Source: Prochlorococcus sp. AG-363-A16
Lineage (GTDB): Bacteria; Cyanobacteriota; Cyanobacteriia; PCC-6307; Cyanobiaceae
NCBI GenBank assembly: GCA_003280345.1
Contig: QCFB01000003.1
Coordinates: 1-64,000 of the forward strand
DNA length: 64,000 bases
Direction: 5' to 3'
In this document: positions 11,151-63,852 of the stretch, one piece after another
Numbering within the stretch: the stretch's first letter is position 1
Layout: every line of letters starts with the position of its first letter
Notes under the pieces: generated by a model
Database searches by the model: none
The model's input: the letters and a program-made list of their open reading frames with translations, nothing else
What the model was told of the DNA's origin: nothing
Translations under genes and position numbers: made by a program

Positions 11151-11223
11151 GCCCCCATCGTCTAGAGGCCTAGGACACCTCCCTTTCACGGAGGCGACAG
11201 GGGTTCGAATCCCCTTGGGGGTA
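11151..11223 (+). tRNA. tRNA-Glu (anticodon TTC)
   Basis: Acceptor GCCCCCA/TGGGGGT, anticodon arm CCTCC-CTTTCAC-GGAGG, T-arm CAGGGGTTCGAATCCCCTT. Confidence 0.97.
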
Positions 11224-34550: not shown

Positions 34551-34612
34551 TCGTGAGAGTTTCGGCTCCCACACTCCTCACACCACCAGCCCGACGAGCT
34601 CGGGCTTTTTGT
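34551..34612 (+). ncRNA. yfr1: Yfr1 small RNA
   Basis: guaB-trxA intergenic; unpaired motif ACTCCTCACAC (34573-34583) between a 5' stem (GTGAGAG/CTCCCAC, one mismatch) and terminator AGCCCGA-cgagc-TCGGGCTTTTT. Confidence 0.95.
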
Positions 34613-49462: not shown

Positions 49463-50314
49463 ATGAAACAGTGGCATCTTAAAGATCTACCAAAACTACA
49501 AAAGCTAAAGCTTGCAGTTGTAGGACATGTGGAATGGGTAACTTTTTCAAAAGTAAACAAACTTCCTACAGCTGGCGTTATATGCCATGGTAATGAAATC
49601 CTAGAAGAGCCTGCGGGAGGAGGTGCAGTAACTGCTATTGAACTAGCAAGGCTTACTGGAGATTCAGTGCATTTAATCACTAGTCTTGGCAATGATTTAT
49701 ATGGTAAAAAAAGCGCTCAAAGGCTAGAAGAACTTGGACTAAAACTTAGTGTTGCTTGGAGGGAGACTCCAACAAGAAGAGGCATCAGTCTTGTGGCCCC
49801 TGACGGCGAAAGGGCTATTACTGTTATTGGGAAACGACTACAACCATCTTCAACAGACCTTTTACCTTGGAGAGAATTGGCTAATTACGATGGGGTTTTC
49901 ATAACAGCAACCGATTCAGCATCCATACAATTTTGCAGACAGGCAAATGTACTAGTAGCCACTCCTCGAGTAGGACTAAAGGTTCTTAGAGACTCCAACG
50001 TAAAGCTTGATGCACTAATAGGAAGTGGCCTAGACCCTGATGAAAAAATAACAAGTGCAAACTGTCTGCCTGCTCACAACCTCAGGATCGCAACGGAAGG
50101 CGCGCAAGGAGGTGAGGCCTGGCCTGGAGGGCGTTTTAAAGCATTCCAACTAAAATCAAAACCAATAGATGCATATGGATGCGGCGATAGTTTTGCCGCT
50201 GGGGTTACTGCTGGCTTGGCGTCAGGATGGAGTGTTGAGCAATCAATAAATCTGGGAGCACACTGCGGAGCACACTGCGCAGCTCGTTTCGGGCCCTATG
50301 CTAGAAGAAACTAA
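49463..50314 (+). CDS. PfkB-family sugar kinase
   Basis: EPAGGGAVTAIELARLTGDSVHLITSLGNDLYG and DAYGCGDSFAAGVTAGLASG. Confidence 0.92.
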   Translation: MKQWHLKDLPKLQKLKLAVVGHVEWVTFSKVNKLPTAGVICHGNEILEEPAGGGAVTAIELARLTGDSVHLITSLGNDLYGKKSAQRLEELGLKLSVAWRETPTRRGISLVAPDGERAITVIGKRLQPSSTDLLPWRELANYDGVFITATDSASIQFCRQANVLVATPRVGLKVLRDSNVKLDALIGSGLDPDEKITSANCLPAHNLRIATEGAQGGEAWPGGRFKAFQLKSKPIDAYGCGDSFAAGVTAGLASGWSVEQSINLGAHCGAHCAARFGPYARRN

Positions 50315-50383: not shown

Positions 50384-50578
50384 ATGAGTGACAATAAGAC
50401 AATCAAAAGAGCAAACCTTAGTCATAAGTCAATCTTTGCTGGAATAGTGATGACAATTCTCTTAGTTGATTCAGTAATCACAATTCTTTCTATATTTAAA
50501 AATGGCATCAGAAAAAAAGAGATACTTTCCTCAAAAACAACTTATGGGTTTGACTTTGACATTGTTATAAAGCCTTAA
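50384..50578 (+). CDS. small single-TM hypothetical protein
   Basis: 64-aa ORF with TM SIFAGIVMTILLVDSVITIL. Confidence 0.5.
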   Translation: MSDNKTIKRANLSHKSIFAGIVMTILLVDSVITILSIFKNGIRKKEILSSKTTYGFDFDIVIKP

Positions 50579-50703
50579 AAAGCTTTACTTTCTAAAGACG
50601 AACCTTTTCCATTTTTCGACATGGGAGTAATTGAGTAATATTAGCTATCGCAAGAAGGAATTTACATGGCTTTAATTGTATTGATGTTAAGTCAATTTTA
50701 TCA

Positions 50704-50856
50704 ATGCTTGTTCAAGCTACTCAAACTTCAGAAGAGAAAGTGGCTATGAATGAAAAGCACTACCAAGCAATAATGCAAGCATACAGTGAAGGGCTACTTT
50801 GGCCAAGCAACAGAAAAACAAGGTCAAAGTTTCTATTCCTTAAAGAAGATGAATAG
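50704..50856 (+). CDS. candidate 50-aa protein MLVQATQTSEEKVAMNEKHYQAIMQAYSEGLLWPSNRKTRSKFLFLKEDE
   Basis: Hand-read ORF; protein-like composition; start could be the internal ATG (MNEKHYQ). Confidence 0.45.
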   Translation: MLVQATQTSEEKVAMNEKHYQAIMQAYSEGLLWPSNRKTRSKFLFLKEDE

Positions 50857-51020
50857 AAGAGAATCAAAAATAGCTAATAAAAGTAATTTTTAGATCTCCT
50901 ATGAGTACATACTCTTTTAGAAAGATTATGTTTTACTAATAGAGTATGGATTTATATTTATCAGACTAGCGAAATACAAAGATTTTGCTTTAATATTATT
51001 AGACATTATATAATGCCAGA

Positions 51021-51377
51021 ATGATTATCATCATTAGTTCAATAATAATTTTTATATTTATTGGCATTATGATATTTTCAACCAACAAGAAGTCTCAATC
51101 AAGGCTAGTAATAAGGTTTAAAAATAGATTTAAAGATAAAAACCATCATAGAGAGAAATTAAAACTTTTGGTTTCAGACTCACTAATGAATGACCCTGAA
51201 AGCAATATAAAAATCTACAGTTGGGATTCTGAATCGGATTTACGCGAAAAGGCCGACATACACCGTGCAAGACTCCACAGATATGGTCGGTCAAAGATGA
51301 ATGGGAAAATGCTTTTCATGGGTCCAAAGGGTGGGGTTTATCTCTTCACCCAAAGTGGGAACAGAAAATATCTTTAA
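51021..51377 (+). CDS. TM-anchored protein with C-terminal GPKGGVYLFTQSGNRKYL motif
   Basis: N-terminal TM (MIIIISSIIIFIFIGIMIF), basic middle, C-terminal GPxGGxY...G.+.YL. Confidence 0.65.
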   Translation: MIIIISSIIIFIFIGIMIFSTNKKSQSRLVIRFKNRFKDKNHHREKLKLLVSDSLMNDPESNIKIYSWDSESDLREKADIHRARLHRYGRSKMNGKMLFMGPKGGVYLFTQSGNRKYL

Positions 51378-51574
51378 AATTCATCAATTTTCTATTAATT
51401 CAACATAAGTGTTCGCTCTAGAGAAAATCAATAACCCTATCTAAAACTATGCTTTATTCAATAATAATTATAAGAAACAAAAGAAAATCAAAACCACCAC
51501 CTATACGAAGCAGAAACAACTAACATTTAAGTAGGTATCTTTTTCTTACTAAAAAGCTAGGCGAAGCTCCTCAT

Positions 51575-51769
51575 TTGGTCCTACATAAACTAAATATCAT
51601 GAATCAGCTAAATTATTGCACAATGATTACAATGAGTCCTTTAAACAGTCTATTGCTATTAATGGTGGCTCTAGGACTTGCCTTTCTAATGCTTGTAATT
51701 TTCCTCGACAACAACGAAGGCTTTGCCCTGAAAAGGGATTGGAGGGAAAAAGAAACTGAGAAAAAATAG
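51575..51769 (+). CDS. small membrane protein (start may be internal, MITMSPLN...)
   Basis: TM SPLNSLLLLMVALGLAFLMLVIFL followed by charged tail. Confidence 0.5.
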   Translation: MVLHKLNIMNQLNYCTMITMSPLNSLLLLMVALGLAFLMLVIFLDNNEGFALKRDWREKETEKK

Positions 51770-51873
51770 TGGCCGAAAATACTCATAAATCACAAGATTT
51801 CTTGCCTGCAATAGTCCTATTGGCCTTAAATTTATATCTTATAGTTTTACTTATCATATTCTTTATAACTTAA
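51769..51873 (+). CDS. candidate 34-aa membrane peptide MAENTHKSQDFLPAIVLLALNLYLIVLLIIFFIT (GTG start)
   Basis: Hand-read; GTG overlaps the previous stop by 1 nt (TAGTG); single hydrophobic helix. Confidence 0.45.
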   Translation: MAENTHKSQDFLPAIVLLALNLYLIVLLIIFFIT

Positions 51874-52077
51874 GTATTTGCATATTTAGCCAAAAGATTA
51901 CCTGAGTAAAAAATATTAGCCAAAAAGGAGTTTCAAGAGAAAGTCTAAAATTACATGTAATAAATTTAACATAAAATAGCTAAAAGTAGAAATAACAAGG
52001 TGCAAAGAACATTAATATTGGATTACTTGCTATATCATTGACTTGCCAAGTACAACAGGACTCACCAATTTAAAGCC

Positions 52078-52416
52078 ATGCCACTAATCAACTTAATGAC
52101 CTCTGCAAATAAAAGCAAAGGACAGGAAAAATTACTGGAAGAGATGTCTGCTGAGTTAGCCCAACTTACTGGAAAGCCAGAGCAGTATGTAATGATAATT
52201 ATACAAAATAATGTTCCTATGATCTTTGCCGGTGACCGGGAAGACTGTTGCTATATAGAAGTGAAATCTATAGGATCACTTAGTCCAAGCAAAATGTCTA
52301 AAGTTCTAAGTAATCTAATTCACTCAAGGCTCGGAATCTCAGCAAATAGGGTTTATATAAATTTCGAAGATATTGATGCAAGTAAATGGGGTTTCAATGG
52401 AAATACCTTTGGGTAA
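52078..52416 (+). CDS. MIF-like tautomerase (macrophage migration inhibitory factor homologue)
   Basis: MPLINLMTSANK...LAQLTGKPEQYVMI...KSIGSLSP...RLGISANRVYINFEDIDASKWGFNGNTF; catalytic Pro after Met and Lys in TGKP conserved. Confidence 0.93.
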   Translation: MPLINLMTSANKSKGQEKLLEEMSAELAQLTGKPEQYVMIIIQNNVPMIFAGDREDCCYIEVKSIGSLSPSKMSKVLSNLIHSRLGISANRVYINFEDIDASKWGFNGNTFG

Positions 52417-52475
52417 AAAACACTTGCTATTATTTATTTAATATAAAGCCTTTTATTTAAGTATAGCGTATATGT

Positions 52476-53132
52476 TCACAAGAAGGTGCATATCATCTTT
52501 CTGTTTGCAGTTGGTGTCATACAAAGTTCGTCTAAGCAAGTCAAGTAGATACCATCATGATATAAATTACTTTGATAAGATAGTCTTAATTCTTGCTCAA
52601 ACTTTTTTTGATCTTCAAAAGGATTTTTTGAAAATCCAAGTGTAGTATGAGGCCTAACCAATCCAACCTTGGCCTTATATTGATAATCTAAAGCATTAAT
52701 TATATTCAATGGCTTATTTTCACTCCCTTCTAGATATAGAGTATTAATATCTGAAAAAGAAAGCAATAATTGATTTAACTCCAACTCTTCGCCTAAAGAA
52801 ATAGACAAATAACTTAAAAAATTTGCATATTTATAACTTAAGCAAATTGCAGAAAGATTTGAATCGCAGCCTTCAATATAAACCCCTTCAATGCCCTTGT
52901 AGCATTTGTCCCATAGAGAAAGCGCATTTTTTGTTTTTATTTGATTGATTACACTTTCCCCAGACAAGAACCATCCCAATAAACCTTCCATAGATTGAGA
53001 TACACCCTGAAAGACTGAAGTATGGAGAAATGCCTCGCATCCTTCAGCAGTTTTATACAGTCCATCAGTTATTGGCTTTAGAGCTCTTTGACTATCTTCA
53101 GAAAGGCCTAAGCTCAGACAAAAAACAAACAT
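52476..53132 (-). CDS. hypothetical protein, candidate 2H-phosphoesterase-like
   Basis: Two H-x-[TS] motifs: FLHTSVFQG (H37) and RPHTTLGF (H162). Confidence 0.5.
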   Translation of the reverse strand: MFVFCLSLGLSEDSQRALKPITDGLYKTAEGCEAFLHTSVFQGVSQSMEGLLGWFLSGESVINQIKTKNALSLWDKCYKGIEGVYIEGCDSNLSAICLSYKYANFLSYLSISLGEELELNQLLLSFSDINTLYLEGSENKPLNIINALDYQYKAKVGLVRPHTTLGFSKNPFEDQKKFEQELRLSYQSNLYHDGIYLTCLDELCMTPTANRKMICTFL

Positions 53133-53372
53133 AAGATCCTCCTCATTAATCTATTGATTAAGAACAATCTCAAGCTTAGAATAAATATCTGGAATCCAAA
53201 CAAAAATTAAAAGCAGTTAGTTATCGAGCTTAAGCCTACAAATAAAGTTGATAAAACTCCTTAGTCTAGAAATAATCTTTTAGGAATAACCTTCTAAAAG
53301 ACAACTTTAGTGTTATTATTATACCGTTAAGATGAACTAGCTAAAAGGGCTCCAGACCCTTAACTCAAAAAA

Positions 53373-53585
53373 ATGACTGCAAGAGAGTTTATCAGGAATC
53401 ATGCTTACCCAGTGTTGGCAACTGCAAGCACATTGAGCTTTATTTTGATTGCTATTTCTTTATTACCTATAGCTCATTGGGCAAGAAACCAAAATGACTG
53501 CATTGAAAGAACTTTTAGATCAGATGGAACTAATAATGCAGGAATGCCTTCAAAAGTCTGGAGCTGTAATGGAGGCGGAAACTAA
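53373..53585 (+). CDS. small single-TM hypothetical protein with two cysteines in the C-terminal part
   Basis: 70 aa; TM PVLATASTLSFILIAISLLPIAHW; DCIERTF...KVWSCNGGGN. Confidence 0.6.
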   Translation: MTAREFIRNHAYPVLATASTLSFILIAISLLPIAHWARNQNDCIERTFRSDGTNNAGMPSKVWSCNGGGN

Positions 53586-53819
53586 AGCAATTACCAATTA
53601 TTCTAAACTCTTAAGTCATGTTAAAATAGTAAATAGAAGAAATTAATTATTTTCCTACATATAGATTCTTTCCTAAAATTTAGGTTTATTAAACACAGTT
53701 AACACCTTTAAGCTTTAAGAGACATTCTCAAATCACTTTAATTATTGATTGGCTAATTTCAAGGTTTTAAGAGGACAATCCCTCTAGGAAAGAGACAACT
53801 TCAAAATTAGAATAGAACT

Positions 53820-53927
53820 ATGCTCGAGCGCCCATCATCTTTTTACTATTTCCAAGAACATCCATATATGGGACCCTCGCAAAAAGTTTTGCATTTGATA
53901 AGACAAGTGAGCTCATGGAATTGTTAA
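53820..53927 (+). CDS. candidate 35-aa ORF MLERPSSFYYFQEHPYMGPSQKVLHLIRQVSSWNC
   Basis: Hand-read; protein-like composition only. Confidence 0.3.
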   Translation: MLERPSSFYYFQEHPYMGPSQKVLHLIRQVSSWNC

Positions 53928-54165
53928 CAATGCAATTAATTTCAAAAAGGCACTTAATTCACTAAAGAATCCCTGTGTTAAGCGCTCAAAACCCAATCAT
54001 TGCAACCCTTCTCAAGGAATAGGATAGGTCTCCGAACAAAGTGTCTTGAATATGCCTATAAGGCTATTCATTTTTCAAGATGCAACAGAGACTCCCTTGA
54101 TTAAGCACTTCTCGTTTATATATGTCTGACTATCACAAAACAGGGCTTTCAAAGAGCCTCTTTTA

Positions 54166-54489
54166 TTGATGATTGACTTAAACCACATCATTGATTTCGC
54201 CACACAACTACCTCACCCTTCTGATATCGGATTAGTCAAGCCAGGTAATGGGTTTTCACTAGTACCAGCCATCTTTGGCCTAATCGCTCTCTTCCAAGTA
54301 AGTCAGTTCATTTGGTATGGATTACCCCAAAACGAACCAAAAGAAGGTTGGGGACTAAGTTCTGATTCTTCCACTTTCTCTTATCGCTGGAAACAGTTCA
54401 CTGGTGTACAAATTTTCGTTGTCCTAGTAGCTTGTTCAGTAATTCTTGCTGGACCAGAACTCATCTTCTTTCCTTTAGGTCTGAAGTAA
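54166..54489 (+). CDS. hypothetical two-TM protein
   Basis: 107 aa; PGNGFSLVPAIFGLIALFQVSQFIWYGL and VQIFVVLVACSVILAGPELIFF. Confidence 0.6.
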   Translation: MMIDLNHIIDFATQLPHPSDIGLVKPGNGFSLVPAIFGLIALFQVSQFIWYGLPQNEPKEGWGLSSDSSTFSYRWKQFTGVQIFVVLVACSVILAGPELIFFPLGLK

Positions 54490-54681
54490 TTGAGTTTAGA
54501 ATTTTGAGAAAAAATGAAGAGAGCCAAGCATTTCTTTATTGTTTGGCTTTCCATTAAAACAAATCTAAAAATATTCAAACATACTTGAAAGTAAATTATT
54601 TTTAATTTGGCCTTAATTTTGTTGATTTTTATTCAATTAAAGATTCATTATATATTAGGCTAATAAAAATACAAATAATTC

Positions 54682-55137
54682 TTATCTCCACCTAATCCTT
54701 TCAGGGTATTTCTTTTCAATTCTCTTTATTATTAATATGAGCAAGGCAATTGTTATTGGGCCAATTAAACCCACAGAAAAAATAAATATCTTTATCTCTG
54801 GAGTTAGAGCTGAAAGCAAAAAGTAGCTCATTGCAGCAAGAATTGAAAAATATTATTTAAATTTAAATTCCCAAAAGGAGGTAATTCATAAATACATCTC
54901 ATTTCTTTAGCCTTTTTGAAATCAATCGAACTTAAAGCTTTAGGCCATTCCAATTGCAATAAACTATCACTCCATTGGCTTGTCTAAACGAGCCTGATAG
55001 TTTCCCTGTAAGCCTAACAATCCATTTAAGAAGGTTTGGGGTGCCTCATTGAGCATGAGTATTGAGCATGTAGCAACAAACCTAATCACACTTAGAGTGG
55101 CTAGCCCTGGAAGCCAATAGAGCTGCACTACAAACAT
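54682..55137 (-). pseudogene. probable membrane-protein gene split over three frames by two 1-nt shifts (or three overlapping sORFs: 54967-55137 and 54682-54831 are clear)
   Basis: Frame 1 MFVVQLYWLPGLATLSVIRFVATCSILMLNEAPQTFLNGLLGLQGNYQARLDKP, frame 2 WSDSLLQLEWPKALSSIDFKKAKEMRCIYELPPFGNLNLNNIF, frame 3 SILAAMSYFLLSALTPEIKIFIFSVGLIGPITIALLILIIKRIEKKYPERIRWR*; GGAGG upstream of first ATG. Confidence 0.5.
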
Positions 55138-55448
55138 GATTCCTCCGAGCTTTTAACCTCGAACTGAAGGACTAAGAATTTAACGTGCCATGTTTCAAAG
55201 CTACTTCCGACTCACCTGGGAAGAAGGGGTGACTTGTCTTGCATAAATTAGCTCATAAAACTGGTCATCAGGATATCTGTGGATCTAATCTAGTTGTCTA
55301 TTTTCAATAGTGTCTTTTGTAATTAATAAGACAGGCTGTTTCCCAGTTCGATTAAATGAATCAGGGTTGCAATAATAAAAGCTAAACGAGACTATCTTCT
55401 TTTATCCAAGCATAGAAATAACTAAATTTGTAATGGCATATAGATTAA

Positions 55449-55622
55449 TTATTTCTGGCATAGAGAATGCCTCGCTATAGACCTGTGTCCAGATGTGTCA
55501 GCAAAATACCAGCCAATTGCTTTTTCTTCTATGCAGTTTGCCTTAGCTGTCATTTGATTTGAACTCAGAAAAGAGATCGGAGTACCTACAAGAAGAAATA
55601 ACAAAAATAACTTTAGTCGCAT
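55449..55622 (-). CDS. candidate 57-aa secreted peptide with two cysteines
   Basis: Hand-read: MRLKLFLLFLLVGTPISFLSSNQMTAKANCIEEKAIGWYFADTSGHRSIARHSLCQK; signal peptide-like N-terminus with AKA site. Confidence 0.55.
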   Translation of the reverse strand: MRLKLFLLFLLVGTPISFLSSNQMTAKANCIEEKAIGWYFADTSGHRSIARHSLCQK

Positions 55623-55644
55623 CGATGAATCCTATTCAAAATTC

Positions 55645-55884
55645 ATGTCCTTACAAATAAGGCCTTCTTTAGTTTTAGCTCAGCAATCGAATAGATTTCA
55701 ATCCCTTTATCTTTCATTTATTTTTTCCGTTGCAATACATAACGAGTCTAGAGATGAACTCATATTGATTATGGAGTTTCATAACAAATTTCTTAATTGC
55801 AATCAAGCAGAATTAAAGCCCTTAAAAGTTATCTTGAGTTTTTTGCAGCAAAAATATTTTTTCTATCTCGAGCAATTTAATTAG
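55645..55884 (+). CDS. hypothetical protein, 79 aa
   Basis: ORF only; divergent from the 55449 peptide. Confidence 0.35.
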   Translation: MSLQIRPSLVLAQQSNRFQSLYLSFIFSVAIHNESRDELILIMEFHNKFLNCNQAELKPLKVILSFLQQKYFFYLEQFN

Positions 55885-56035
55885 GAATTAGCGGCTAAAA
55901 AAAGATTATCGATTCAATCAGCATTTATAACTACATACAACATAGGAACTTATAGGTATAAAGGATTAGTAATTAATTAAAGGAATGTCTTTCCATAGGT
56001 TAAGCCTCCTAGAGATTTATTACGGGAGGTTTGCA

Positions 56036-56086
56036 ATGGTAATTATAATGTCATTAATATTAATTGGGCTATTTAAAATCCAATAG
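56036..56086 (+). CDS. candidate 16-aa hydrophobic peptide MVIIMSLILIGLFKIQ
   Basis: GGGAGG Shine-Dalgarno upstream of ATG; the Shine-Dalgarno can pair with CCTCC at 56006-56010. Confidence 0.25.
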   Translation: MVIIMSLILIGLFKIQ

Positions 56087-56244
56087 ACTATATTCATTTG
56101 AGACCAAATTGAGTTACGCTGTTTTTAGATAGGGAGTTCAGAAGTTTTTTCTATTCTTTAGAATATTAGATAATTTATTTATAAAAAATAATCATTTTAA
56201 TATTTTTAAGAATTAATTTAGTGCTTCATGGTATTTGATTAGTT

Positions 56245-56451
56245 TTATTCAACTCCTTTACTGAGAGTATTGATAGCAGCTTCTTTTGATAAGAGAATTA
56301 GCTGAGTAAGCCTTGCAACAATTCCCTGCCCTAATCCAGACTTAGATAACTTTTCAAAAGTGTCTAGATAGGTCTTATCTAGGCTTTCAAGTAATTCCTT
56401 TTGGATCTCTCTTGCGATTTCCAGCTGTTCTTGTCTATCTTTTTGAGGCAT
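56245..56451 (-). CDS. small helical hypothetical protein
   Basis: 68 aa MPQKDRQEQLEIAREIQKELLESLDKTYLDTFEKLSKSGLGQGIVARLTQLILLSKEAAINTLSKGVE. Confidence 0.6.
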   Translation of the reverse strand: MPQKDRQEQLEIAREIQKELLESLDKTYLDTFEKLSKSGLGQGIVARLTQLILLSKEAAINTLSKGVE

Positions 56452-56591
56452 TTCTTTAAAGATAAAATGTAAGTTTATCTACTATTCTTGTGTAATATAC
56501 TATAAACCTAAGAAAACTTCCGCCAAAGCAAATTTCTTCTCTATTTTATCTTATTTTTTCGAATCAAATTTTACATTCAAAAAATCATTCT

Positions 56592-56924
56592 TTGATTATG
56601 ACTAAATATCATTGTCCATATTGTAACTACAAGTTTGTAATAACAAAAGAAGAGGTTGGGCGCTCAATGTTATGCAGTGCTTGTGGAGAGCCTCTTGTTA
56701 AGACAGGCTTTTTCAGTCTAACTCGTTGCTTTGCTTTAATAAGTGTTCTCACATTCATAACACCTTTAGTACTTATGGTATTTGCATTAATCAAAGACCA
56801 ACAAGAATCAAGGAACCAAGATCCAATTTCTTATGTCGGGCTTGATAGAAACCCGGTTCAATTATCAACCTCATTTAATTCAAATCAGAATCAGAATCAG
56901 AATCAGAATCATTCTTGGTTTTAA
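56592..56924 (+). CDS. zinc-ribbon small membrane protein with NQ-repeat C-terminus
   Basis: CPYC...CSAC ribbon, TM CFALISVLTFITPLVLMVFAL, C-terminal NSNQNQNQNQNHSWF. Confidence 0.7.
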   Translation: MIMTKYHCPYCNYKFVITKEEVGRSMLCSACGEPLVKTGFFSLTRCFALISVLTFITPLVLMVFALIKDQQESRNQDPISYVGLDRNPVQLSTSFNSNQNQNQNQNHSWF

Positions 56925-57537
56925 TTGTTTGATTATAGTCGCTAACTTCACTTGAATCTTTCTCCTTTTTAAATATTTGGCTGTAGTCATTTATCTCACT
57001 TAAATCTTGATTCTTATTGTTTTCCCCAATATCATTGGCCTCAGTTGATCGTTTATTTTGATTAATCTCCTCAATTTGAATAGCTTCATTAATTAATTTT
57101 GATTCTATTTTAGCTTCTTCTTTACTAGCTTCCTTATTTAAGGTTGATTCTGGCTTAGCTTCTTCTTTACTAGCTTCCTTATTTAAGGTTGATTCTGGTG
57201 GCTCTTCTTCCTGATTAACTTCTTTCTTATCATTAACCACTAATGAAATTTCCTTGACTGCTGGTACTTCTACAGTCTCTAATTCAACTGAAATATCTTC
57301 TTCCTTTTTATCACTAGCATCAGCATTTGTATCTTGGAGATTTTCCTCGGTTTCCGCCTGAATTAGATCTTTGAGAACAATTAATAGGTCTTTAAAATTA
57401 ACAAATAAGTTTTTTAGATTAGTAAAAATTTCTTTTAAAATCGTTTTAATTTCATCAGACTTTGGACCTGAGTAAAACCAAAGGATTGCTGAGCCTACTA
57501 CCAAAGCAATGAGCAAAAAAAGGAAAACAGCAACCAT
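56875..57537 (-). CDS. TM-anchored acidic/low-complexity protein with 15-aa tandem repeat and SD-repeat C-terminus
   Basis: N-terminal TM VFLFLLIALVVGSAILWFYSG; repeat PESTLNKEASKEEAK; tail SDSDSDSDSDLN. Confidence 0.7.
   Translation of the reverse strand: MVAVFLFLLIALVVGSAILWFYSGPKSDEIKTILKEIFTNLKNLFVNFKDLLIVLKDLIQAETEENLQDTNADASDKKEEDISVELETVEVPAVKEISLVVNDKKEVNQEEEPPESTLNKEASKEEAKPESTLNKEASKEEAKIESKLINEAIQIEEINQNKRSTEANDIGENNKNQDLSEINDYSQIFKKEKDSSEVSDYNQTIKTKNDSDSDSDSDLN
56883..56911. repeat. hexanucleotide microsatellite (AATCAG)x4 plus partial
   Basis: aatcagaatcagaatcagaatcagaatca. Confidence 0.95.
57110..57198. repeat. tandem direct repeat, 45-bp period, identical over 44 nt
   Basis: TTAGCTTCTTCTTTACTAGCTTCCTTATTTAAGGTTGATTCTGG at 57110-57153 and 57155-57198. 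Confidence 0.95.
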
Positions 57538-58007
57538 GGGTTAAATCTGCATCAGCTACCCACAATCCCATCAAATCACATACAAAACAAGAGATCGCAA
57601 TAAACCTCTCGATTGCTCATCCCAATTCATCAAAAGAAAGCTTCAAATTTCTTTTAAGCCCAAATAAAGCAAAAGAACAAAATTAGACGATCAAAATCAC
57701 AAAGCCAAGTTTGACAAAGACCTTTTAAAAAGAGCCTCTCGCAAAGCTTGTCATGGCAAATACTAGATAAACGTTATCAAACTTGCTCAGTCAAAAGCCA
57801 AGTTCCCCACTACCCACAGTGTGCAAAGTTAAACTTTGATTAAGCGAAATCTATATCTAGTGTTACGAACAGCCACTCACTCATTTACCTTCGTTACTCT
57901 CACCCCATGGCCGGGTGATGGGGATCAATCGGTCGTTAACTCACGGAGTACGGCCTTCATCCCTGAATTCGAAGGTTCACTCCTCTCTTTAGTTATTTCT
58001 CAAAACC

Positions 58008-58181
58008 ATGAACCTAGGGATCCTTTTTCTTGAAACTCTCTCATCCGGAGTAATTACACCAGAAGAGATGGATTGGGTTGCCAATCATCAGCGAGATTTC
58101 TCACGTATTGAAGAGGCAACTGCACTGAAGCTAGGGAGGTTGCTAGATAGAGGCCTTATTCAGCTTGGTTGTCGCATCTAA
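58008..58181 (+). CDS. 57-aa conserved-looking small protein
   Basis: Hand-translated MNLGILFLETLSSGVITPEEMDWVANHQRDFSRIEEATALKLGRLLDRGLIQLGCRI; strong coding character. Confidence 0.8.
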   Translation: MNLGILFLETLSSGVITPEEMDWVANHQRDFSRIEEATALKLGRLLDRGLIQLGCRI

Positions 58182-58233
58182 TAGCGATTAGGGCCATATA
58201 AATAAGCCCAAATGGCTATGCAATAAATCAACA

Positions 58234-58663: not shown

Positions 58664-59707
58664 ATGACAGCTACTGCTACTACACCCAAAATGAGAGGAG
58701 CTGGAAGAAATGAGCTTCCTCCTCACCTCGACGAAAACCTTCTAACCCCACGTTTTTATACAACTGAATTCGACAAAGCAGCCAAAACAGATCTTGAGAT
58801 AGCTCGAAAAGATTTTGAGGCCATGTTCAAGGAGATGGAAAACGACTACAACCTCAAGCACTTCGACCGCAAAGCTTCTCTTGATCGACTGAATGAGCTT
58901 TCTCCTAAAGACAAATCAGTTTACGAGAGTTACCTAGTTCGCTCAGTCGTATCCGAATTTTCTGGATTTTTACTATTTAAGGAAATATCTAATCGGTTTA
59001 AGAAAGCAGGCAGACAAGAACTAGGCCAGTTTTTTCAATTTTTGGCTAGAGATGAAGCCAGGCATGCTGGTTTCCTAGGCAGAGCGTTAAAAGCCGAAGG
59101 TATAAATGTTGACCTCCCAAACTTAGGCAACAAGCGAGCAGCGACATTTTTTCCTCTTAGTTGGGTTCTCTATTCGTTATACCTTTCTGAAAAAATTGGA
59201 TATTGGCGTTACATATTGATTAATCGGCACCTAAAAGCGAATCCAGATAAGGCTTGTGCACCCTTGTTTGACTTCTTTGAACCTTGGTGTCAAGACGAAA
59301 ACCGCCATGGAGACTGCATCAACTTAATGATGCGCTGCTGGCCAGGAATGACTAAAGGTTTCAGGGGAAAAATGCTTAGTCGTTTTTTCCTTTGGACCGT
59401 TTTCCTTACCCACACACTAACTGTTTGCGAGAGAGGAGATTTTTATGAAATGTTAGGCATAGACCCTGTGCTTTTTGATGAAGAGGTAATCATCCAAACA
59501 AATAACACTTCTCGAAACGCATTCCCTTGGGTTTATAAGTTTAATGATGGCAAGTTCCTCGAAATGCGAATTCAAATCTTAACTGCATTCCGCAAATGGA
59601 GAGATAGCTCTGGCTTTTCTAAACCATTAGCTCTAGGCAAATTCATCTCACTAATGCTTAAGCAATTTGCATTACCAATGGAAAAGACCAATGCTGTGCG
59701 TTATTGA
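58664..59707 (+). CDS. acsF: Mg-protoporphyrin IX monomethyl ester (oxidative) cyclase
   Basis: Diiron motifs RDEARHAGFLGRAL and CQDENRHGDCINLMMR. Confidence 0.97.
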   Translation: MTATATTPKMRGAGRNELPPHLDENLLTPRFYTTEFDKAAKTDLEIARKDFEAMFKEMENDYNLKHFDRKASLDRLNELSPKDKSVYESYLVRSVVSEFSGFLLFKEISNRFKKAGRQELGQFFQFLARDEARHAGFLGRALKAEGINVDLPNLGNKRAATFFPLSWVLYSLYLSEKIGYWRYILINRHLKANPDKACAPLFDFFEPWCQDENRHGDCINLMMRCWPGMTKGFRGKMLSRFFLWTVFLTHTLTVCERGDFYEMLGIDPVLFDEEVIIQTNNTSRNAFPWVYKFNDGKFLEMRIQILTAFRKWRDSSGFSKPLALGKFISLMLKQFALPMEKTNAVRY

Positions 59708-59835
59708 TAAATAAATTTTCTTCTTTAGGTATAGTAAAAGTCGATTGATAACTAAATAAACCCGAAATTAAGTCTATATGAATTAATATTTTTGAAGCAA
59801 TTACTATATTTACTTGTTTAATTATATTTTCAAGT

Positions 59836-60210
59836 TTATATATCAAACGGACTACCTGCTTGAGCTTTTGCTTTTTCTAAGTATTTACCAAACTGCATTT
59901 CATAAACCTCGTCTTCATCCTGAGTCTCAAGCTCTAATGGGCCGATAGCCTTAGCAACACAAAGAAGACCATAACCCAATGCCTGCATCTCTTTTGAAAG
60001 ACCTATGCCATCATTTTGATCCATTTCACCAGACAAAACCTTGACCGCACAAGTTGTACAACAGCCATTTCTACATGAAAAAGGCAGTTCCTCTCCATGC
60101 GACTCGAAGCAACGAAGGATGTATTCACCCTCTGGTACTTCAAAAGTTATTGTTCGGCCTACTTGCCGGTGATGGATAGTTACCTTATGAAGAGGTTTCA
60201 TCTGATTCAC
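59836..60210 (-). CDS. plant-type [2Fe-2S] ferredoxin
   Basis: LPFSCRNGCCTTCAVKVLSG...GLLCVAKA cysteine pattern. Confidence 0.93.
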   Translation of the reverse strand: MNQMKPLHKVTIHHRQVGRTITFEVPEGEYILRCFESHGEELPFSCRNGCCTTCAVKVLSGEMDQNDGIGLSKEMQALGYGLLCVAKAIGPLELETQDEDEVYEMQFGKYLEKAKAQAGSPFDI

Positions 60211-60292
60211 ATTGGAAAAAGTTGATTTTGTTTTTAGGTGTTTTCTTCTATTGAAATAGCTCTTTTAAAAAAGCCTAAGCGACCTTAAGCTC

Positions 60293-60625
60293 CTAATTAC
60301 TTCCTACAACGCCTATATCCCTGTTAATTGGTCCAGGTGGAAGGGCCTTTGCATGTTCATGTAATTGATTTACATCAAGTTGCGCAGTGCAGCTCTCACC
60401 TCCAAAACGAAGCTTGAGCCAATTGATGGATGTAGATTCTGCTGCAACTACCGCTTCAACATCTTGTCCAGGAAGTTCGAATTTCTCTACTAATTCTGGG
60501 GATAAGTACCAAAACGGAACATCGTCCCCTTTACGCTTTCTGCGTTCTAAAACTGTTTCACGTAACTGCCCATTCCCGCTGAGCTGGCCAACAGGGGCTA
60601 AAAGTGCATAAAGAGTCTCTGACAT
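60293..60625 (-). CDS. conserved cyanobacterial hypothetical protein
   Basis: 110-aa coding-like ORF upstream of the ferredoxin gene. Confidence 0.65.
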   Translation of the reverse strand: MSETLYALLAPVGQLSGNGQLRETVLERRKRKGDDVPFWYLSPELVEKFELPGQDVEAVVAAESTSINWLKLRFGGESCTAQLDVNQLHEHAKALPPGPINRDIGVVGSN

Positions 60626-60849: not shown

Positions 60850-61521
60850 TCAGAAAAGGAGTCTTATTCCAAGTTGACCTTTAACTGCGCTCATTCCATC
60901 AAAATCCTTATGACCTAAATAAGTATCAGAGACAATACTGTGGTAACTGACTTCACCAAAAAGATCAGTGTTATGCCACATAGGATATGAAAGACCTGTT
61001 TTGACTATCCAAGTTTGGGTGCTGTCTTCCTGTGGTCCAGTTTTTGGCTGAGATGTACCTGCATGATGAACTGCGTCAGTACTCAAAGTGGAATACCCCC
61101 ATCCGGCGCCAACGTAAGGGACAATCTGACCTCCTAGAAGTTCAGGCATGTCGTAATAAGCATTGATCATGTATGAACTTGCGTTCACATTGTTAATGTC
61201 AAAATATGGATGGCTTGTATCTTCAAGCCAGAAAGAAGTTTGGCTATAAGAAATTTCAGTCCTTAGGTTCTCATTTACACGATAACCAAGTCCAATTTCA
61301 CCATTTATGACGTTGTCTGTATCCAAACTTTTGTCTAGTGTTCCCGTTTCTTTGAAATTTATTTCATCCATAGCTAAAGCTGAACCAGCGCCAATAGATG
61401 CATAGAAACCAGAGGAATCTTCACCTGCTTTAACTGGTGAAATATCAGCAAGGCCAGGAGTGGCAATTGCAGAAAAAGCAAGTCCTGCTGCAAGCAAGGT
61501 TGACTTGAGATTAACGCCCAT
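60850..61521 (-). CDS. outer-membrane beta-barrel protein (opacity/OmpA-like); ORF could extend to 61584
   Basis: Signal peptide MGVNLKSTLLAAGLAFSAIATPGLAD; alternating beta-strand pattern; terminal ...GQLGIRLLF. Confidence 0.8.
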   Translation of the reverse strand: MGVNLKSTLLAAGLAFSAIATPGLADISPVKAGEDSSGFYASIGAGSALAMDEINFKETGTLDKSLDTDNVINGEIGLGYRVNENLRTEISYSQTSFWLEDTSHPYFDINNVNASSYMINAYYDMPELLGGQIVPYVGAGWGYSTLSTDAVHHAGTSQPKTGPQEDSTQTWIVKTGLSYPMWHNTDLFGEVSYHSIVSDTYLGHKDFDGMSAVKGQLGIRLLF

Positions 61522-61593
61522 TTTATGCAGAAAATGCAAATTTTTACTGAGTTTAAATGATATAGTCTTTCTAGCTGATATCAATTCGAAATT

Positions 61594-62537: not shown

Positions 62538-63587
62538 TTAGGAAGGATTCAAGTTTGCAAGGGTTTGGGGTATACGTCTGAAATCAAAGCCCGCTGCACG
62601 AAGTGCATGCCATAAATGACCTTGAATGCAGAAGAAGCCAAAGTAATACTGAACATTGACTAGAGCTGCACGAGTTGTGTGGCCCAAAAAGTACTTGCAA
62701 TCTGATATATCGCCAGTATCAACCCAATAAGGAGAAATACCAAACTTCAATGATAGGGGTTCTCCATACCACTCGATTGGATAAACCGTAGTGTTTTGAG
62801 AAGCCCAGAAAGCTACAAGAATTCCCATCCAACCTAAGCCAGCAAGAGACCAAGAAAGAACAGCCTCTGCAGAAAGAAGGCCTGAGCCTTTGAATTTGGT
62901 GTACTCACCAATTTGCCTAGTTGCAATATGGAAAGCTCCACCACTGATCTGTAGGAAAGCCAAGAATGCATGACCACTCATGACATCCTCAAGATTGTCA
63001 ATGGTTAGAAAATCAAATTGATGGCCTAAAAGCATCCCAAAATCGCCATATCCAGGGAAAACTGTTCTTACAGCTCCTATAGCTGGGTCGTAGATTCCAT
63101 GGACTCTGGCCCATTCAACGAACCAGATATTCGCGACACCAAGGAAGATCAAATGATGGCCAAGGATAAAAGTCAGATTGTCTGGGTTATCCCATTCCAA
63201 TTTGAACTTTTTAGTTTGAGGGATAGGGCCACCTTCAAGATCTCCATCAAAAAGAAGAGAGTGCAATAAGCCAGCTCCCCCATAGACCATTGAAAAGATC
63301 AAGTGGAAAATGGCAATTGTTGAAACTCCAACACCTGTCCACACACCAGCTTCATCAAATCCAATTCCTAAAGAAGCCAAATGGGATAGGTATATCGAGC
63401 TCTGATGCCCCATTGACACCGAGGGGTCAAAGCGTGCTAGCTCCCAAAGGCAGCTTGCACCAGTTGCGAAGCAAATCAATCCTGTATGCGCAACATGCGA
63501 GCCAATGAAACGGCCCGCTCTATTGGTCACCACAGAATTACCAACCCACCACCCATAGGTGACGTCTGGGTTTCCGTAGGTCTGCAT
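62538..63587 (-). CDS. pcb: Pcb/IsiA-family chlorophyll-binding antenna protein (six TM, CP43-like)
   Basis: MQTYGNPDVTYGWWVGNSVVTNRAGRFIGSHVAHTG, ILGHHLIFLGVANIWFVEWARVHGIYD, FGFFCIQGHLWHALRAAGFDFRRIP. Confidence 0.95.
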   Translation of the reverse strand: MQTYGNPDVTYGWWVGNSVVTNRAGRFIGSHVAHTGLICFATGASCLWELARFDPSVSMGHQSSIYLSHLASLGIGFDEAGVWTGVGVSTIAIFHLIFSMVYGGAGLLHSLLFDGDLEGGPIPQTKKFKLEWDNPDNLTFILGHHLIFLGVANIWFVEWARVHGIYDPAIGAVRTVFPGYGDFGMLLGHQFDFLTIDNLEDVMSGHAFLAFLQISGGAFHIATRQIGEYTKFKGSGLLSAEAVLSWSLAGLGWMGILVAFWASQNTTVYPIEWYGEPLSLKFGISPYWVDTGDISDCKYFLGHTTRAALVNVQYYFGFFCIQGHLWHALRAAGFDFRRIPQTLANLNPS

Positions 63588-63852
63588 AATTAAGAGTTCA
63601 AGACGGTAATACGCTTCGAAGACTACACTCAACTGGAGCTGGAACGGTTAAGCAGTTCAGCATCCGTAAAAGTCTGCGGTATTTGAGAATTGCCAAAGTT
63701 CATATTTTTCCAAAAGAAAAAGGTCTTTAGAAATTTTTTTTGCCTTTTTTTCGATAAATAAAAGTCAAGAAGGATCCATCATTGCCATAGGTCCAAAGAA
63801 GAGGTTGCTACTGAAGTTTGGAAATAATTTTCAAGATGATTCAAAAATAAAA

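Follow-up and report, generated by a model that had tools for sequence, protein, structure and literature searches.

To capture light at the base of the sunlit ocean, low-light Prochlorococcus relies on several different Pcb antenna proteins, whose genes form tandem arrays. Multiple pcb genes were gained at the LLVII grade and lost in the ancestor of the high-light (HL) clades (PMC11559063); the part of that paper considered here deals with pcb and pigment genes, not with the small genes between or beside pcb. Here we describe a sparse, AT-rich stretch of a contig of Prochlorococcus sp. AG-363-A16 that leads into such an array in the same clades, and a family of small membrane proteins, named after its member tm107, that recurs around Pcb genes. 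The window, that is, the whole stretch of DNA analysed, comprises 64,000 nucleotides (nt; G000:C3:1-64000) of assembly G000, which measures 1.74 Mb and is 89% complete. Judging from an acsF 92% identical to the copy of genome G057 and a guanine-plus-cytosine (GC) content of 40%, the genome is most likely a member of the low-light LLVII grade. Our overall reading, held with moderate confidence, is that of a hypervariable interval between pfkB and Pcb genes, with the tm107 family as small partners of the expanded Pcb antenna.

In order to place the stretch, synteny was compared around acsF and the small gene gpkgg118 at 36 loci from low-light clades. In 27 of these, a left flank with MFS and DUF2834 genes leads into tandem Pcb genes, and pfkB is part of that flank in 24 of the 27. 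The corresponding landmarks in the window are the following:

49463..50314, + strand: pfkB-family kinase, left flank (PF00294, 73.9 bits), syntenic in relatives
58664..60625: block of acsF (+ strand), a ferredoxin-like gene (- strand) and p110 (- strand), which separates the small genes from the pcb array in this sublineage alone
62538..63632, - strand: Pcb antenna protein p364 (PF00421, 121.8 bits), first of an array extending beyond the window

The p364 protein, with 364 amino acids (aa), has the short CP43-like length and classifies as a Pcb/CP43-like antenna protein; further Pcb copies lie at G000:C3 63967-65040 and 65458-66519. Between p110 and the array, an outer-membrane beta-barrel protein (PF13505) is encoded at 60850-61584, for which no match was found near acsF in the relatives compared there.

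A first, sequence-only reading had proposed an accessory island bordered by pfkB and acsF. These borders are not supported, as the acsF-ferredoxin-p110 block forms the far flank at only five of the 36 loci (the window, G057, G018, G052 and G027) and the Pcb array does so at 27; four of the 36 show no strong acsF or pcb match within the sequence covered. At all five acsF-flanked loci a pcb gene follows within approximately 2–4 kb past the block, and in the window the stretch has no natural end at acsF because low coding density continues to the Pcb genes from 62538. Thus, on the basis of synteny read outward from acsF and gpkgg118, we identify the stretch with high confidence as the hypervariable pfkB-to-antenna interval of low-light Prochlorococcus; in this sublineage the acsF-ferredoxin block interrupts it.

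The hypervariability itself was correctly anticipated, since both length, from 1.4 kb (G057) to 13.6 kb (G010), and contents vary strongly among relatives; gene content differs between clades, and the locus is hence not an identical core locus everywhere. Its syntenic part consists of a64 (present in the interval at 29 of the 36 loci), gpkgg118 (31/36) and often MIF (17/36) and cc70. The genes tm107, hli33, zr110, tma220 and s57 are found repeatedly, in varying combinations, around Pcb loci, and the remainder is made up of patchy genes such as r218 and of sequence without recognisable genes. A second type of pcb locus (L170, L172, L174) has the order pcb, s57, zr110, tm107, with hli33 nearby.

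The most distinctive gene of this interval is tm107:

54169..54489, + strand: tm107, a type-A member of the Pcb-linked family of small membrane proteins, with two predicted helices

Iterated searches gathered a family of proteins of 45–110 aa with one or two predicted helices, which we divide into five types: A (about 106 aa, two helices), B (about 63 aa), C (about 65 aa, with a C-terminal SDDSKRIDPWAKP or similar), D (about 45–50 aa) and E (about 94 aa). A head resembling MIDLTHIIDFATQLPHPSDIGLVKP is common to types A, B and C, and the AlphaFold2 model of tm107 places helices at residues 32–52 and 70–95. The protein has no relative in Pfam, NCBIfam or, at E ≤ 10, the PDB. The last result led us to reject homology to solved photosystem chains, and a phage origin was discarded since 50,697 phage records and PHROGs gave no match. 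The closest analogues would be the small proteins of photosystems and antennae (Psb and Psa small subunits, Hli proteins), tm107 appearing likewise short, of thylakoid type and near photosynthesis genes; it differs from them in lacking a sequence relation to solved chains or to Pfam and NCBIfam families.

The family is restricted to Prochlorococcus with an expanded antenna. Among 201 genomes of the organism's family, it occurs in 54 of 54 genomes with at least three pcb matches, in 6 of 48 with one or two (five of these six being 70–86% complete) and in none of the 99 without pcb matches. The genera g29 and g17, taken as LLIV and HL, respectively, have one or two pcb matches and no tm107. This range agrees with the pcb gain at the LLVII grade and the loss in HL ancestors as published (PMC11559063), the pattern of gain and loss being shared by the tandem pcb arrays and the tm107 family.

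Genomic proximity points in the same direction. In 14 closed genomes, at least 26 of the 38 listed copies have a pcb gene no more than 3 kb away, against an expectation of 0.36 within 5 kb, and two more, apparent outliers, adjoin pcb genes; types B and C are often divergently oriented beside a pcb gene. A wider scan of the genomes of 84,980 species, performed with a narrow family alignment, retained 77 loci, 64 of which have pcb within 6 kb; all records are titled Prochlorococcus, save one Synechococcaceae.

The family is also under purifying selection. Ratios of nonsynonymous to synonymous substitution rates (dN/dS) were calculated pairwise by the Nei–Gojobori method (NG86), the close genus g56 being most informative, whereas values among more distant genomes (0.1–0.5) are indicative only, dS being near saturation. 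The tm107 family yielded 0.03–0.2, with 0.03 for the type-C paralogue in g56 and 0.07 in g10 (where the rows tmB and tmC are one open reading frame (ORF), counted once); as a yardstick for small ORFs, pfkB gave 0.10 in g56. We note that some copies are broken or split (L036 7556-8175, L108, L037 7302-7472) and are decaying, because stop codons separate their halves.

Upstream of tm107, three conserved features precede the start codon:

54072..54089, + strand: M1 element TTTTCAAGATGCAACAGA; sites with zero or one mismatch occur only before the tm107 family
54114..54123, + strand: -10-like box GTTTATATAT, at a spacing from M1 that is fixed in relatives
54142..54159, + strand: leader hairpin AGGGCT..AGCCT, located in the presumed 5' untranslated region, conserved in position, with modest covariation

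Related genes carry one of three elements, M1 at about 70–98 nt, M2 (TTTGTAACGATCT) at about 63–78 nt or M3 (GGGTTTGGCATAGTGGCCACC) at about 47–61 nt before the start codon. They are subtype-specific, their distance to the start is nearly constant, and each is followed by a -10-like box. When 20 whole genomes were searched with mismatches counted, exact M2 was found at one site in each of six genomes, always before a type-A gene, and with zero or one mismatch M1 had 13 sites and M3 six, all before members of the family. Sites with two mismatches lie mostly elsewhere; three precede further tm107-family copies.

The upstream region appears to travel with the start of the gene. A 171-bp direct repeat, 96% identical, links 54072-54242 to G000:C3 67156-67326 (L180 7156-7326), 13 kb away, and involves a type-A and a type-C paralogue. 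It begins exactly at M1, ends near codon 25 and holds M1, promoter, leader and the first 25 or so codons; such a block common to two paralogues suggests that promoter and head are exchanged as a unit. The leader hairpin has four pairs, and 5 of 15 sequences are unpaired at one of them; the evidence for it is suggestive only, and it may act as a terminator-like element or in translational control. Stem variants GGCU/AGCC, GGCC/GGCC and GGCG/CGCC, followed by T-rich sequence, were observed at M1 copies L147, L151, L165, L186, L199, L200 and L205.

From these data we give about an even chance to the proposal that the tm107 family acts as a small membrane partner to the expanded Pcb antenna. Its members would be located in the thylakoid, next to and in contact with Pcb or photosystem-Pcb complexes, and would serve as small structural or assembly partners, possibly with subtype-specific pairing. 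Every subtype would be expressed from its own conserved promoter element, and paralogues would swap promoter-plus-head cassettes through recombination, as seen for one pair in G000. A more specific version, in which types A–E are undescribed thylakoid subunits specific to the multi-Pcb antenna, matched to Pcb paralogues and driven by private promoters that recombine with the head, is tentative and more likely wrong than right.

Several observations weigh against a role in the antenna. The presence correlation is confounded by clade, with few independent gains and losses, and within expanded-antenna genomes copy number follows pcb only modestly (Spearman 0.35). Type-E copies sit away from pcb genes, and L168, L169 and L173 hold full-length type-A copies that are free of pcb neighbours up to a distance of about 9 kb. 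The AlphaFold2 model is weak (predicted local distance difference test score, pLDDT, of 67). In addition, none of the scanned loci showed M1–M3 upstream of a pcb gene, and co-regulation of tm107 and pcb through shared elements was rejected on these grounds.

The positional exceptions and the weak dependence of copy number on pcb are what one would expect if the family consisted of general thylakoid or regulatory membrane proteins, unrelated to Pcb function and copied along in a recombination-prone tandem array; the recombining 5' cassettes that paralogues have in common also fit this. Strong purifying selection argues against such passive copying, and so do the private, conserved promoter elements and the absence of the family from all 99 pcb-less genomes and from the two-pcb genera taken as HL and LLIV. 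We thus regard this explanation as doubtful, if the most serious of the alternatives.

The sparseness of the stretch deserves separate consideration, as it had first drawn attention to the locus, and density and GC profiles bear it out. Coding density, computed from greedy ORFs of at least 100 aa in 4-kb bins, is 0.79–1.0 up to 48 kb and 0.63, 0.33, 0.54 and 0.59 in the later bins. The sparse stretch spans 50.3–58.6 kb, and GC drops from about 0.40 to 0.33–0.34 over 50–58 kb. No Rfam family was found within it, and structured RNA in the gaps was rejected after a permissive Rfam search returned a single chance match. Elsewhere in the window, the small RNA Yfr1 lies at 34553-34608, as expected for cyanobacteria.

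Low GC, low density and patchy genes such as r218 could reflect a horizontally acquired mobile island, tycheposon-like or other, between pfkB and acsF. Indeed, the interval resembles Prochlorococcus genomic islands and tycheposons in being variable, AT-rich and rich in small genes. It differs from tycheposons in that the stretch contains no tRNA (the sole tRNA of the window is at 11151), no recombinase or transposase was found among the ORFs scanned, the flanks are fixed and the contents partly conserved, with core genes in synteny. The same interval is AT-rich in all relatives (GC 0.29–0.37), so that low GC belongs to the locus as such and does not signal recent import. We therefore rejected the mobile island, which we consider improbable. 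That the stretch is mostly decaying non-coding DNA with ORFs arising by chance is less probable still, because, although density is low and seven ORFs (tm34, o35, o43, o56, sp57, o79 and o65) had no homologue in the loci searched, at least 12 have homologues (a64, gpkgg118, MIF, cc70, tm107, r218, hli33, zr110, tma220, s57, tm49 and tm64, and weakly a50), with dN/dS well below 1 where measurable.

The remaining small genes of the interval are the following:

50384..50578, + strand: a64, single-transmembrane (TM) protein directly 3' of pfkB; homologues in 33 genomes, dN/dS about 0.26 in g56
50704..50856, + strand: a50, weakly supported small ORF; seven homologues after iteration, in six genomes
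51021..51377, + strand: gpkgg118, N-terminal TM segment and conserved LREKADIHRARL...GPKGGVY domain; 53/201 genomes, dN/dS 0.10 in g56
51575..51769, + strand: tm64, small single-TM protein; homologues in two genomes
52078..52416, + strand: MIF-family tautomerase; PF01187 81.9 bits (cut-off 22), PDB 2XCZ E 7e-31, dN/dS 0.15 in g56
52476..53132, - strand: r218, 2H-phosphoesterase-like, patchy; 5/201 genomes
53373..53585, + strand: cc70, TM segment and two-Cys C-terminal domain; short form of a 160–165 aa family
54682..54831, - strand: tm49, small single-TM protein; homologues in four genomes
55985..56086, + strand: hli33, Hli-like peptide of 33 aa containing E..xGRxA[MW]; conserved near pcb genes in 13 genomes
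56245..56451, - strand: egts68, divergent TIGR04374 small protein; 54.8–55.4 bits, under the cut-off of 70
56592..56924, + strand: zr110, zinc-ribbon-like (two CxxC) with TM segment; six genomes, Pfam sub-threshold
56875..57537, - strand: tma220, N-terminal TM segment and acidic repeat tail; 17 genomes, dN/dS 0.27 in g56
58008..58181, + strand: s57, conserved soluble small protein; eight genomes, low ratio of nonsynonymous to synonymous differences (pN/pS)

Much of what the sequence-only reading had said of these genes was borne out. Many of the small ORFs show conservation and purifying selection, and 12 of the 21 tested between pfkB and acsF have a hydrophobic segment. The GPKGG-Y protein belongs to a real family, as does the two-Cys protein cc70, whose C43 and C65 are invariant and whose family occurs in 109 of the 201 genomes. 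The zinc ribbon fared less clearly, homologues in six genomes keeping the CxxC pairs while Pfam matches remained below threshold.

The predicted MIF homologue was recovered with 2XCZ, the Prochlorococcus MIF deposited as a possible ATLS1-like light-inducible protein, as its best solved relative. The match is full-length, MPLIN aligns with MPLIN, and the catalytic-type N-terminal Pro after the start Met is common to both; the window protein differs by a three-residue deletion. In four of its five carrier genomes r218 sits at the pfkB-pcb locus. Like 2H phosphoesterases (CPDase, LigT, Usb1, ASCC1) it has two HT[ST] motifs, H37-T-S and H162-T-T, with His invariant across the five homologues, and its predicted fold may be similar: the top PDB matches of its model in Foldseek were ASCC1, Usb1, plant CPDase and LigT-like proteins, albeit weak (E at best 3.5e-3, TM-score about 0.4–0.5). 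It differs from them in matching no Pfam family, and we consider it 2H-phosphoesterase-like, with a putative activity only.

The hli33 peptide has the ExxxGRxAM chlorophyll-binding core, in which E10, G14, R15 and A17 are invariant across nine sequences and position 18 is M or W. It matched no Pfam family, including the chlorophyll a/b-binding profile, and is shorter than the Hli proteins known to us. For egts68 a link to ergothioneine was rejected since EgtD was not found in G000 (89% complete); nor was it found in G002, G057, G051 or G030, and it is present in G108 and G008. Several low-light genomes for which the EgtD search was negative retain the TIGR04374 protein, which suggests another role or a leftover. 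In the tma220 family the helix is conserved and the length of the acidic tail very variable, with EPEVT-type repeats in g56 (L155, L187–L193).

A variable neighbourhood with small membrane proteins is an already known type of locus. Searches of the open-licence literature, represented largely by titles and abstract openings, found neither the tm107 family nor the variable pfkB-pcb interval described; this is a lead, not proof, that the family and its link with the Pcb expansion are new, as they appear to be. More generally, an 'unannotated small-ORF island' can prove to be an organised gene neighbourhood when synteny is followed across clades. The tm107 family, missed by standard family libraries, would give a direct handle on how several Pcb proteins are assembled and matched to photosystems.

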